Source: Alistipes sp.
GTDB lineage: Bacteria; Bacteroidota; Bacteroidia; Bacteroidales; Rikenellaceae
DNA: 49,260 bases
Assembly: GCA_017629145.1 (NCBI GenBank)
Contig: JAGBXR010000014.1
Coordinates: 1 to 49,260, forward strand
Direction: 5' to 3'
The notes under the pieces were generated by a model. The model made no database searches. It saw only the letters and a program-made list of their open reading frames with translations, and was not told the origin of the DNA. The position numbers and the translations under genes were made by a program. Positions 40,736 through 47,348 of this stretch are shown one piece after another (position 1 is the first letter of the stretch; every line of letters begins with the position of its first letter).

Positions 40736-41854
40736 ATGACAATAGTCGAGATTTTACGTCGCGCAATTGCCACAGAGACCCCTTCCGAGAGCCTTGCGCC
40801 TATTGCGGTGGAGAACTGGGGCGAGATATACAAGGCAGCAGCCAAGCAGGGCGTCTTTGCCATAGTGTATGATTATGTGAAGTCGCTCCCCACAGCCGAG
40901 CAGCCACCCAAAGGGCTAAAGCTGCAGTGGGCACTCAACGCCGAGCGCATCGAGAAACGCTACCACAAGCAGAGCGCATTGGCAGGCGAGCTCGCCGAGA
41001 TATATGCCTCGGAGAACATCACCACGCTTGTTCTCAAGGGTTTGGCAATCAGCAAGTACTACCCCATAGCCGAACACCGCGAGTGTGGCGACCTCGATTG
41101 CTTCCTCGCCAAAAGTGACAGCAATCAGCCATACGGCATAGCCTTGCGCGAGAATGGCATTCCACAGAGTTGCTACGCGGCTGGCAACACGATAGCCAAG
41201 CAAGCAGGCGCGAAGGTCGAGATCGGCTTTTACAAACACTCGCACATCAACTTTCGTGGCTTGGTTGTCGAGAATCACGCATTCTGCACCGCTGTGCGCG
41301 GCTCGCGCAACAACAAACGCTTCGAGCGACACTTGCAGCAGCTCCTCGCAACGCGCCCCACAACCCCTATCGGCCAGAGTAGGCTGTTGAGTCCCTGCGC
41401 CGACTTCAACGCGCTATTCCTGACGGCTCACAGCTTCCAGCACTTCATCACCGAGGGTATCAAGCTACGCCACGTTTTAGACTGGGCACTATTGCTACGT
41501 GTCGAGCAGCACAACATCGACTGGCAGAGCTTCTACGAGTGGTGCGACACGATGCACTTTACGAAGTTTGCCGACGCAATGACAGCCATTGCTGTCGATA
41601 AGCTCGGCATTGAGATTAGCAACCCTGATATCCGCACCTCAAGTAAGTTACGCGACAAGGTCCTTGACGACATACTCTACAGCGAGAAGAAGGTAAGCGG
41701 CACGAAGGGCTCGAAGTTCACAAAACGACTCAAGATCATCCGCAACCGACTGCTCGGCGGGTGGAAATACAAAGAGCTCTACGAGCGCTCTGCATTTGTA
41801 GATACTATGCAGATGGTTGTTGCGTTCTTTATAGAGCGCAACCCAAAGATTTAA
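40736..41854 (+). CDS. Nucleotidyltransferase-fold protein (PF14907-like)
   Basis: A 372-residue protein. VLKGLAISKYYP at 99-110 and ECGDLDCFL at 116-124 give the KG-x(n)-GDxD pattern of the uncharacterised nucleotidyltransferase family often found in capsule loci. A helical C-terminal part follows (HSFQHFITEGIKLRHVLDWALLL). The DxD is present as D119 and D121, so metal binding looks possible. No substrate is known to me. It starts 3 bp after the last GT2 and 30 bp before rfbA. Confidence 0.78.
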   Translation: MTIVEILRRAIATETPSESLAPIAVENWGEIYKAAAKQGVFAIVYDYVKSLPTAEQPPKGLKLQWALNAERIEKRYHKQSALAGELAEIYASENITTLVLKGLAISKYYPIAEHRECGDLDCFLAKSDSNQPYGIALRENGIPQSCYAAGNTIAKQAGAKVEIGFYKHSHINFRGLVVENHAFCTAVRGSRNNKRFERHLQQLLATRPTTPIGQSRLLSPCADFNALFLTAHSFQHFITEGIKLRHVLDWALLLRVEQHNIDWQSFYEWCDTMHFTKFADAMTAIAVDKLGIEISNPDIRTSSKLRDKVLDDILYSEKKVSGTKGSKFTKRLKIIRNRLLGGWKYKELYERSAFVDTMQMVVAFFIERNPKI

Positions 41855-45336: not shown

Positions 45337-45361
45337 TCACGATCAGGAGTCGGATTAACAG

Positions 45362-45408
45362 GCTGTCCAGCAAGCAGATACGAAGCTTGCCGGACAGCAC
45401 TTTTTTTA
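45362..45408 (+). terminator. Strong intrinsic terminator closing the capsule locus
   Basis: GCTGTCC (45362-45368) pairs with GGACAGC (45392-45398), and GCAAGC (45370-45375) with GCTTGC (45385-45390); a single A/C mismatch separates the two. A 9-nt loop closes it and seven T follow at 45401-45407. It separates the capsule genes from the VWA pair. Confidence 0.93.
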
Positions 45409-45488
45409 CCTTAAAATGAGAGGCGACTCGACTATTAGAACAAAGTGGAAGCCTATAACACCAAAAAATGAGTTGCTAAAGGAAGAGT

Positions 45489-46370
45489 ATGTATTCACAA
45501 CAGATTAACCGACAGAGTCGCGGAGCATTCATCGTAATGGTCGATTGCTCGGCATCGATGAGGGCTATGACAAGGTTCAACAACACCGAGATGCCCAAAG
45601 CCGAAGTCGTAGCCCTTATGTGCAATCTCATCATCGATGAGCTTATCGAGCGTGCAACACGCCACCACGTGGTGCGCAACTACTACGACATAGCCGTCAT
45701 CGGCTATCAGCACAATAGCATCTTCTCACTTCTTGCCAAGCCGCTTGGCGAGGGCTTTAGCAACGTTGAGCTTCTCTCGAAATTCGCACCCTCGTACGAG
45801 GTATTCAATCTCAAGCAGCAACTCGACAACGGCCTTGAGATAAACATTCCGTTCAGCTATCGACCCTGGATTATGCCACGCGCATCGGGTAAAACACCTA
45901 TGTACGAAGCATTTATCACCGTGCGCGATATGATTGCCGAGTGGTGCTCACGCCCCGAAAACCGACGCAACTTTCCGCCCATAGTAATAAACATCACCGA
46001 TGGCGAGTGCAACGATGCTACACCCGAGGAGCTTGTTGCCATAGCCCAGGATATAGATAAATGCGCAACGGAGGATGGCCACACACTGCTTATCAACGTG
46101 CACCTCTCGGCATTGGATGGCGACACGTGCAGACGACTATTTCCAAGCGAAAGACGCTTCACGACCGAGAGCAACTACTGCAAGATGCTCTTCGATATGT
46201 CGAGCAGCATACCCCCTTGCCTCGAGCCACTTATCGACGAGATAATCCAACTCGAGGGTCGCGGCCCCTACCGCGCTATGGCGTTTAACGCCTCGCCTAT
46301 GGAGCTCTTTGCAGTGATGAACATTGGCTCGGAGAGTGTGCGCAGCAACTTCCGAATCGAAAAAGAGTAG
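45489..46370 (+). CDS. VWA domain protein (TerY-like)
   Basis: A 293-residue protein that is essentially one von Willebrand A domain. MIDAS is complete: DCSAS at 19-23 (DxSxS), the threonine in SGKTPMYEAF near 136 and the Asp in NITDGECND near 163-170. The C-terminal ~60 residues continue as a helix-rich tail. The single-domain cytoplasmic form resembles TerY-like VWA proteins, which elsewhere work with a kinase and a PP2C phosphatase. Its stop is 3 bp before the kinase-like/WG gene. No promoter of the usual type was found in the 80 bp after the capsule terminator. Confidence 0.85.
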   Translation: MYSQQINRQSRGAFIVMVDCSASMRAMTRFNNTEMPKAEVVALMCNLIIDELIERATRHHVVRNYYDIAVIGYQHNSIFSLLAKPLGEGFSNVELLSKFAPSYEVFNLKQQLDNGLEINIPFSYRPWIMPRASGKTPMYEAFITVRDMIAEWCSRPENRRNFPPIVINITDGECNDATPEELVAIAQDIDKCATEDGHTLLINVHLSALDGDTCRRLFPSERRFTTESNYCKMLFDMSSSIPPCLEPLIDEIIQLEGRGPYRAMAFNASPMELFAVMNIGSESVRSNFRIEKE

Positions 46371-46373
46371 AGT

Positions 46374-47348
46374 ATGAGCATATGTACAATAGGTGCGTTC
46401 CGCACCGCAATGCAATTCTCCGACCAATATATATCCTCACCAAGAGGTATACGCGCAAACATCGCAACTATCACACGCACAAAGCATTTCGCCGAGTGCG
46501 AGGCGACAATAGGCTACCGCCAGGCGATGATCTATGCACCTTTGAGCAACGATGCTGTGCGTATGATAATGTCGACAAATCGTGCCGTCGGCCGCGCACG
46601 CGGAGATATTATCGCTATGGAGGTGGGCTACAATGCGCTGCACACCGATTTTCCACAGAGCGTCAGCTGTCCGATAGTTGTCGAGTATCTCCCCGAGAGC
46701 TACACTCCGCTCCGCGAGGCACTATACCTCACACGTCGCACGACACTCTTGCGCGGTCTCGAGGAACTTCGCGCGAAACTTATCGAGTACGACTTCTCGC
46801 ACAACAACCTGCATATCGACAATATAGTGCTCGACGAAAATGGCACGTGGTATCCCATACGCCTATACTACTCGACACAGGGCGCAGGCGGCGATGAAGC
46901 AGCATTCGATGCACTGCGTATCGCTATAGCCGACAGCGCGATGAGCGACGATATTAGTGAAACACTGCTCTATGAGGAGCTCTCTGGCTATACGGCAGAG
47001 GAGGCCACAGACCAGGAACCACTCATAGAAAACCGCCGCCGATATGCTACGGAGCGCGGATATGGATATACGGATGAGAGGGGAGCTGTAGTCATCGAGG
47101 CGCAGTACTCCTATGCCGAAAACTTCACAGAGGGTCGCGCCGTAGTGCGCAACGCCGAGCATCGGGCAGGAGTTATAGATCGCCGAGGCAAGGAGATAGT
47201 CGCACTGTGCTACGACGAGGCTATATTCGACGTGGAGAGCGCGACGATATGGGTATCACTCGATGGCCGTTGGAGCGAATTCGACTACAATGGTATAGCT
47301 ACTGGTGAGTGGCGCGATAGTGCACCACTATGTGCAGAGGAGAGTTAA
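46374..47348 (+). CDS. Kinase-like (degenerate) protein with C-terminal WG repeats
   Basis: A 324-residue protein. Residues ~100-160 resemble the hinge and catalytic loop of a protein kinase: VVEYLPESYTPLREAL (hinge and helix D), then FSHNNLHIDNIVLD at 141-154. Aligned to HRDLKPxN, His143 and Asn150 are kept but the catalytic Asp is Asn145. No DFG is visible where YPIRLYYS stands. Residues ~222-310 hold two to three WG-type beta repeats (GYGYTDERGAVVIEAQYSYA, then AGVIDRRGKEIVALCYDEA). It is cytoplasmic. I infer a pseudokinase-like scaffold that works with the VWA protein; the kinase relation is a motif-level reading and is the weakest part. The TAA stop shares bases with the stop of the convergent MFS gene. 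Confidence 0.72.
   Translation: MSICTIGAFRTAMQFSDQYISSPRGIRANIATITRTKHFAECEATIGYRQAMIYAPLSNDAVRMIMSTNRAVGRARGDIIAMEVGYNALHTDFPQSVSCPIVVEYLPESYTPLREALYLTRRTTLLRGLEELRAKLIEYDFSHNNLHIDNIVLDENGTWYPIRLYYSTQGAGGDEAAFDALRIAIADSAMSDDISETLLYEELSGYTAEEATDQEPLIENRRRYATERGYGYTDERGAVVIEAQYSYAENFTEGRAVVRNAEHRAGVIDRRGKEIVALCYDEAIFDVESATIWVSLDGRWSEFDYNGIATGEWRDSAPLCAEES

Follow-up and report, generated by a model that had tools for sequence, protein, structure and literature searches.

A VWA and Pseudokinase-WG Gene Pair as the Probable Core of a TerY-P Relative without a Linked PP2C Phosphatase

Introduction

The window analyzed here, a stretch of 49,260 nucleotides from Alistipes sp., carries two adjoining genes, the first for a VWA protein and the second for a kinase-like protein with a degenerate catalytic loop followed by WG repeats. 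The question raised by this locus is to which kind of system such a pair belongs, and whether it works alone. The nearest known arrangement is TerY-P, described in the available text of PMC11090510 as a TerY-like VWA protein with a PP2C phosphatase and a zinc-ribbon kinase and reported there as a stand-alone defense; the versions with an OB-fold were shown to be anti-phage by Gao et al. 2020, as cited in that text. Activity of TerY-P against T7-like phages (Gao et al. 2020) is summarized in the available part of PMC7699616, and both sources, in the parts available, hypothesize that TerY-P is a metal-sensing phosphorylation switch.

Results

Gene pair and surroundings

Both open reading frames were confirmed at the positions given by the initial annotation, with 293 and 324 codons (Table 1). 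They lie on the same strand separated by 3 nt, and GGAAGAG precedes the start codon of the VWA gene. The genes before the pair, named by eye, are presumably dTDP-sugar (rfb-like) genes. Folding of the terminator-like hairpin (45350-45412) gave -25.1 kcal/mol; the consensus terminator scan, whose loop limit is 8, did not report it. In the close relatives L047 and L048, a gene that ends a few bases 5' of the VWA gene is found instead of the hairpin.

Table 1: Features of the gene pair, in positions of the window.
Feature	Position	Strand	Description	Basis
Terminator-like hairpin and T-run	45361..45407	+	between the preceding, presumed dTDP-sugar genes and the pair	sequence, fold
VWA gene	45489..46370	+	TerY-like VWA protein, 293 aa, ATG 45489	PADLOC, 27-row alignment, family census
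MIDAS DxSxS, residues 19-23	45543..45557	+	D19, S21, S23 identical in 27/27 aligned same-genus proteins	
MIDAS Thr136	45894..45896	+	T in 24, S in 2, A in 1 (n=27 same-genus)	
MIDAS Asp171	45999..46001	+	D in 27/27 same-genus proteins	
Pseudokinase-WG gene	46374..47348	+	324 aa, ATG 46374	kinase-derived domain and WG repeats
Kinase-derived part, residues 1-219	46374..47030	+	N-lobe, hinge, catalytic-loop region, truncated C-lobe	hhalign, PDB kinase profile matches
Tyr54	46533..46535	+	paired with the beta-3 Lys of active paralogues	hhalign
Degenerate catalytic loop HNNLHIDN, residues 143-150	46800..46823	+		
Arg163	46860..46862	+	at the DFG metal-binding Asp position	hhalign
WG repeat, best Pfam stretch, residues 230-259	47061..47150	+		PF14903

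The neighbors of the pair in the window, also named by eye, are genes that we take to be of polysaccharide type and an MFS-like transporter. The neighbors seen at loci of the pair look ordinary: NTP_transf_5, glycosyltransferase and amidohydrolase genes by Pfam, and FKBP-like and DUF4954-like genes by eye. A nucleotidyltransferase gene (PF14907, window 40736-41854) stands upstream of the pair with other sugar genes intervening, and the PF14907 gene is directly upstream of the pair in L047 (4029-5144) and L048 (9207-10325); the downstream MFS-like gene is common to the window and L051 (9497-10756), with 80% identity. The window, L047, L048 and L051 are partly syntenic here, where a polysaccharide locus ends. 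A functional tie to the polysaccharide genes was considered and not adopted, since the NTP_transf_5 or MFS gene is common to only some of the close relatives (L047, L048, L050; L051) and the others have an amidohydrolase or different neighbors. It is also noted that the contig end (48872-49240) holds three copies of a repeat of about 150 nt with a CCTCCCTTTGTCAAAGGGAGG-like inverted repeat; its 26-nt core pattern occurs 3 times with at most 3 mismatches, against 0 in 100 shuffles.

VWA protein

The PADLOC TerY model matches the VWA protein at 1.8e-45 over almost its full length, and the Pfam VWA model barely detects it (0.13). The intact MIDAS read by the initial annotation was sustained by the alignment of same-genus proteins, in which, of the MIDAS residues, only Thr136 shows any replacement (Table 1). 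With this match and this census, the protein corresponds to the TerY-like, MIDAS-bearing VWA component of TerY-P. Its mean column identity was 55% (27 rows), versus 31% for the kinase-derived part of the pseudokinase (29 rows).

Pseudokinase-WG protein

Using the single downstream protein, neither Pfam, NCBIfam nor phmmer against the PDB detected a kinase; the kinase is detected by profiles alone. A profile of 29 proteins (A1) matched Ser/Thr kinases of the PDB (phosphorylase kinase, E 1.1e-4, CaMKII and others), with H-n-N-L-k-e-e-N in register with the kinase H-R-D-L-K-P-E-N, so that the reading of HNNLHIDN as a kinase loop with Asn145 in place of the catalytic Asp was upheld. The profile with the WG part removed (A5) matched the same kinases at 2.8e-4, a result available as ranges, and the WG-free hhalign comparison with the active paralogues described below gave a probability of 99.4 and an E-value of 5.3e-22, pairing HNNLHIDN with their HGDLKPSN. 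The segment VVEYLPES, previously called hinge-like, was located by hhalign in the stretch read as the hinge. Matches to APH were weak (4/29 genus members, best 0.023). Since its profile matches kinases with the catalytic loops aligned to each other, the protein belongs by descent to the protein kinase superfamily.

The residues of an active kinase are replaced at all three positions: Tyr54 stands at the beta-3 Lys, Asn145 at the HRD Asp and Arg163 at the DFG Asp. Among the 29 genus proteins the column of residue 54 never holds Lys or Arg (Y 11, A 6, C 5, S 4, L 1, F 1, V 1), and it is followed closely by a proline, Pro56, which is invariant (29/29). At the HRD Asp, 27 of these proteins have N, one G and one R; at the DFG Asp, 27 have R, one H and one C.

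The WG repeats announced after the kinase-like part were recovered as two PF14903 stretches (whole-protein E 1.4e-11; 44.6 bits, above the curated cut-off of 25.6) and were matched in 29/29 aligned genus proteins. With short or weak early WG matches left out, the loop and the main WG repeat of the window protein are 86 residues apart, and the distance is 76-90 in each of the 12 genus proteins examined (of 29); in other genera it is 157-192 in 17/19 proteins and 127 in L137, with no WG match in L133. Judging by sequence, the genus of the window lacks the greater part of the C-lobe, and the complete C-lobe of a kinase fold is not seen there. The L133 pseudokinase (L133:2661-3614, G290) is an ORF of 318 aa without the WG match of its relatives, and may represent a frameshift or a WG-less form.

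An active kinase elsewhere in the genome

A kinase gene was found upstream of the VWA gene in the same-genus genomes G015, G033, G002, G014 and G012 and in the sister genus g26 (G249, G149); the two are separated by another gene in G002, and the gap in G012 could hold one. In the alignment of these seven upstream kinases the HGDLKPxN loop and the Asp of the DFG position are present in 7/7, and the beta-3 residue is Lys or Arg. A search with this alignment found a kinase in the genome of the window (G000), on another contig (C14:629-1417, E 1.6e-72). Its ORF (C14:614-1639) keeps LKCYY, AHGDLKPSN and IDWDA intact, and its best PADLOC match is STK_OB (2.1e-16), a model also matched by the kinase of L045 and by those of L044 and L046, two loci that have TerY and PP2C. 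The STK-type Ser/Thr kinase of TerY-P, with its catalytic residues, is thus encoded in trans and not adjoining the pair.

In a quick tree of VWA sequences, that of the window falls into one clade with L002-L008 (99), and in all eight members examined the kinase is detached and located on other contigs. The single operon of TerY-P is therefore not found in G000, and clusters of kinase, VWA and pseudokinase genes do occur in other genomes of the family. The description of the pair as an isolated cassette holds locally; it does not extend to the genome, where the matching kinase lies on another contig, nor to the family, where the pair is a conserved trait.

A C-terminal HTH-like segment was seen by eye in 4/9 kinases (the eight of this clade and L116). 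Pfam gave several HTH matches on the G000 kinase, weak and below the cut-off (best 9.8e-5); two other kinases that were scanned also had weak matches of HTH type. When an OB-fold or zinc ribbon was sought at the kinase C-terminus, Pfam returned HTH or WG matches, all of them weak. In detached kinases of this clade (L098:1530-1639, L099, L100 and, by eye only, L103) an HTH or Myb-like C-terminus was observed to replace or follow a WG-like part.

Family census and linkage

The census covered 200 genomes of the family in 22 genera. The VWA gene was found in 183/200 genomes and 22/22 genera, and a catalytically intact kinase of TerY-P type in 179/200 (E up to 1e-8). The pseudokinase-domain profile matched 173/200, a count that is not firm because the profile also matches the active kinase and cross-matches are included. 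By hand count, 174 of the 200 genomes have both VWA and kinase, 9 only VWA, 5 only kinase and 12 neither (Fisher p 2.4e-10, uncorrected for kinship); one of the 174, G028, has a weak kinase match (8e-9). Six of the nine VWA genomes without kinase belong to the genus of the window and have a diverged VWA (E 1e-60 to 1e-66). Also among the nine is G372 (C10:17702-19198), a 98% complete genome of this genus, which has VWA and pseudokinase genes adjacent and no kinase match, with 12/21 kinase candidates scored.

In a draw across the order, VWA was found in 8/247 genomes and the pseudokinase profile matched 7/247, 3 of them in each case being of the window's family. Of the other profile matches, those of G241 and G225 fall within or close to a locus where a kinase stands beside VWA and PP2C genes and the VWA is fused to DarT (by Pfam in G241, by eye in G225), and those of G039 and G221 align around the loop only. 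A search of genome contigs for related loci returned one locus, which matched the WG part only, and a search of viral contigs returned no related locus.

The gene-neighborhood survey that had been proposed for the pair confirmed the linkage. Among the matches listed there are 150 VWA genomes, 123 of which also have a listed pseudokinase, and the latter is directly downstream of VWA on the same strand in 118/123. The first tally was 116/121, with a median gap of 14 nt, to which G288 and G390 were added; the exceptions are G422, G424, G444, G409 and G408. Also among the matches listed, the kinase is upstream of VWA in 95/131 genomes, directly in 48 and within 6 kb in 47, and apart in 36/131, some of which may be due to contig breaks (the first tally for these classes was 42, 46 and 32). 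When the kinase is apart, 32/36 of these genomes have a listed pseudokinase, which adjoins VWA in 31/32. Since the adjacency of the pair persists and the position of the kinase varies, the pair can be regarded as the fixed core and the kinase as the movable part. Because the pair recurs across the genus and the family, it is not a chance find. On the other hand, the notion of a pair standing alone is not supported, with an active kinase in trans in G000 and the kinase upstream in most of the listed genomes.

Within the same listed matches, 27/150 VWA genomes have no pseudokinase row; in genus g177, G285, G305, G319 and G334 have VWA and kinase and no listed pseudokinase beside VWA. The third gene, the pseudokinase, is demonstrated less widely than VWA and kinase.

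Catalytic residues and common descent

A further 20 loci from 11 other genera, selected by their listed pseudokinase match, were tallied by hand. The upstream kinase keeps the catalytic Asp (HGD) in 16/16 loci whose stretch includes its gene, and this Asp is absent from the downstream protein in 20/20 (Asn 10, Ala 5, Arg 4, Gly 1), as in the 29/29 proteins of the genus. In a tree of 47 selected kinase-derived domains, 23 pseudokinases form one clade (95/98), 20 active kinases form one clade with weak support (74/25) and four TerY-P-type kinases fall outside. Given this topology, the data fit one duplication of the kinase gene early in the family, after which catalysis would have been lost in one copy. 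Pairs from the same genus mostly cluster in the trees; L136 and L146 of g26 are among the exceptions.

Search for a phosphatase

A PP2C profile (A4) was made from five TerY-P-type PP2C proteins, each of which was found again in leave-one-out runs (E-values from 5.7e-54 to 7.2e-8). Over the ORFs of at least 80 codons in 146 loci, A4 matched solely outside the family of the window and never beside the pair, and in 61 genomes (37 of the genus, G000 included) it gave 0 matches. PF13672 was found in 29/200 family genomes, the controls being positive in 7/14 control genomes, and in the 24 of 29 positive genomes checked it was never on the VWA contig. A4 is taken as the better test, because PF13672 misses the PP2C of L044. 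In G000, which is 76% complete, neither A4 nor PF13672 found a PP2C. The PP2C component of TerY-P is therefore lacking beside the pair at the family loci scanned, although an unlinked phosphatase of another kind may exist. As the initial annotation had proposed, the locus joins VWA and pseudokinase-WG genes without a linked phosphatase, and the TerY and STK_OB matches of PADLOC relate the set to TerY-P.

It was also possible to see that G003, G028, G029, G395, G416 and G418 (L106-L108), members of the same genus with a divergent VWA and no clear kinase, have the strongest PP2C_2 matches of the genus (about 1e-30 to 1e-33); in G003, G028 and G029 these lie on contigs other than that of VWA.

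Discussion

Proposed module and alternative explanations

We consider it probable that the two genes form the fixed core of a TerY-P relative that lacks a phosphatase, is composed of kinase, VWA protein and pseudokinase, and has been passed on vertically as a core trait of the family. What the sequences support are the linkage, the co-occurrence, the loss of the catalytic residues, the common descent of kinase and pseudokinase, and the lack of a PP2C beside the pair.

It is possible, though unlikely, that the pair and its detached kinase are a reduced TerY-P and still a defense module. TerY and STK_OB are indeed PADLOC defense models, and the available texts report TerY-P as anti-T7-like (PMC7699616) and as a stand-alone defense (PMC11090510); against this, the VWA gene is present in 183/200 genomes of one family, its neighbors look ordinary, no PP2C lies beside the pair and, exceptions such as L136 and L146 of g26 aside, most genus pairs group in the trees, unlike patchy mobile defense genes. 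Distinctly unlikely, in our estimation, is an assembly or adaptor complex of VWA protein and pseudokinase that works independently of the kinase. The adjacency in 31/32 listed genomes with the kinase apart and the nine VWA genomes without a kinase match could be read in that way, but a kinase is present in 174/183 VWA-positive genomes, it stands upstream of VWA in 95/131 of those listed, and 6/9 of the genomes without a kinase match belong to the genus of the window and have a diverged VWA.

The nature of the second protein leaves still less room. That its gene is the decaying relic of a kinase agrees with its fast evolution (31% mean column identity versus 55% for VWA) and with the truncation of the C-lobe in the genus, and is very improbable given that the gene is kept beside the VWA gene in the 12 genera inspected and that new residues are conserved in the genus (P56 29/29, N145 27/29, R163 27/29). 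A chance motif match in a protein of another fold seems extremely improbable: the matches to PDB Ser/Thr kinases (1e-4, loop in register; 2.8e-4 without WG), the hhalign result with the WG part excluded (5.3e-22) and the longer pseudokinases of other genera, which bridge the window protein and the active kinases, outweigh the lack of a Pfam or phmmer-PDB kinase hit for the single protein, the weakness of APH (4/29 members, best 0.023) and the truncated C-lobe.

Returning to the trio with the pair as its core, a TerY-P-type kinase gene would have been duplicated early in the family, with one copy remaining catalytically intact and the second, which stayed beside the VWA gene, losing the beta-3 Lys, the HRD Asp and the DFG Asp; in the clade of the window, the active kinase is encoded elsewhere in the genome. 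The VWA protein may act as a MIDAS-dependent hub or as substrate of the active kinase. The pseudokinase may be permanently bound to it and may control the access of the active kinase to the VWA protein, or its activity on it, with the WG repeats as a putative sensor or docking part. With no dedicated phosphatase in the set, the dead copy would likely be the negative arm. Some detached kinases, that of G000 included, end in an HTH-like segment, which suggests a transcriptional output in those cases. Taking a further and tentative step, an anti-phage-type switch of VWA, kinase and phosphatase could have been domesticated as core regulation of the family, the kinase being duplicated and its dead copy replacing the phosphatase as the opposing arm; we hold this as a conjecture worth stating and not as the expected outcome.

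If these proposals are true, a module of anti-phage type would be linked to ordinary cell physiology, and a bacterial kinase would be kept together with its own dead paralogue and a VWA protein (the pseudokinase was inspected in 12 genera). With no phosphatase linked to it, the TerY-P-like system of this family would also be a natural setting for direct tests of the role of VWA, and the WG repeats would gain a signaling context.

Relation to known systems

A trio of kinase, VWA protein and pseudokinase was not found in our searches of the open literature. WG (KWG) proteins (PF14903) resemble the second protein by the Pfam match of 1.4e-11, and it differs from them in the fusion to a kinase-derived domain and in the linkage to a VWA gene. 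Among bacterial pseudokinases with Asn in place of the HRD Asp, ActPs2, in the available part of the review PMC12599244, likewise has lost the beta-3 Lys, has Asn for the HRD Asp and has lost the DFG; it differs in having Arg at the beta-3 Lys, where the window protein has Tyr and the genus never has Lys or Arg (29/29). The text of that review contains none of the terms VWA, von Willebrand, Bacteroid or KWG.

In other families, the closest VWA homologues (L043:1566-7759, L044:2091-7664, L042:1-4131) are accompanied at their loci by PP2C and by a small protein matching PF22075 (DUF6939, 9.4e-78 in L044). The VWA of L044 is joined in one protein to a DarT ADP-ribosyltransferase domain (PF14487, 1.4e-35), and that of L043 likewise by eye; in L042 a DarT-like stretch, seen by eye, comes after a PP2C-like protein. 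A kinase is also present in L044, where Pfam shows Sel1 repeats on it, and in L043, where its repeats look LRR-like by eye.

The CoCoNuT-associated TerY-P, as described in the available text of PMC11090510, is similar in having a TerY-like VWA with a kinase; it has a zinc-ribbon kinase, PP2C and nuclease operons, whereas the neighbors in the window, by eye, are of polysaccharide type and MFS-like. With the TerY-P triad, the present set has in common the TerY-like MIDAS VWA and a kinase of the same type in the genome, for which STK_OB is the best PADLOC match. It differs in that no PP2C adjoins it and a dead, WG-bearing paralogue of the kinase is the third component, in that the kinase is detached in the clade of the window, and in being near-universal in one family. 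Because the PP2C and the single operon are lacking, we do not file the set as TerY-P; it is a variant related to TerY-P through the descent of its VWA protein and kinase.
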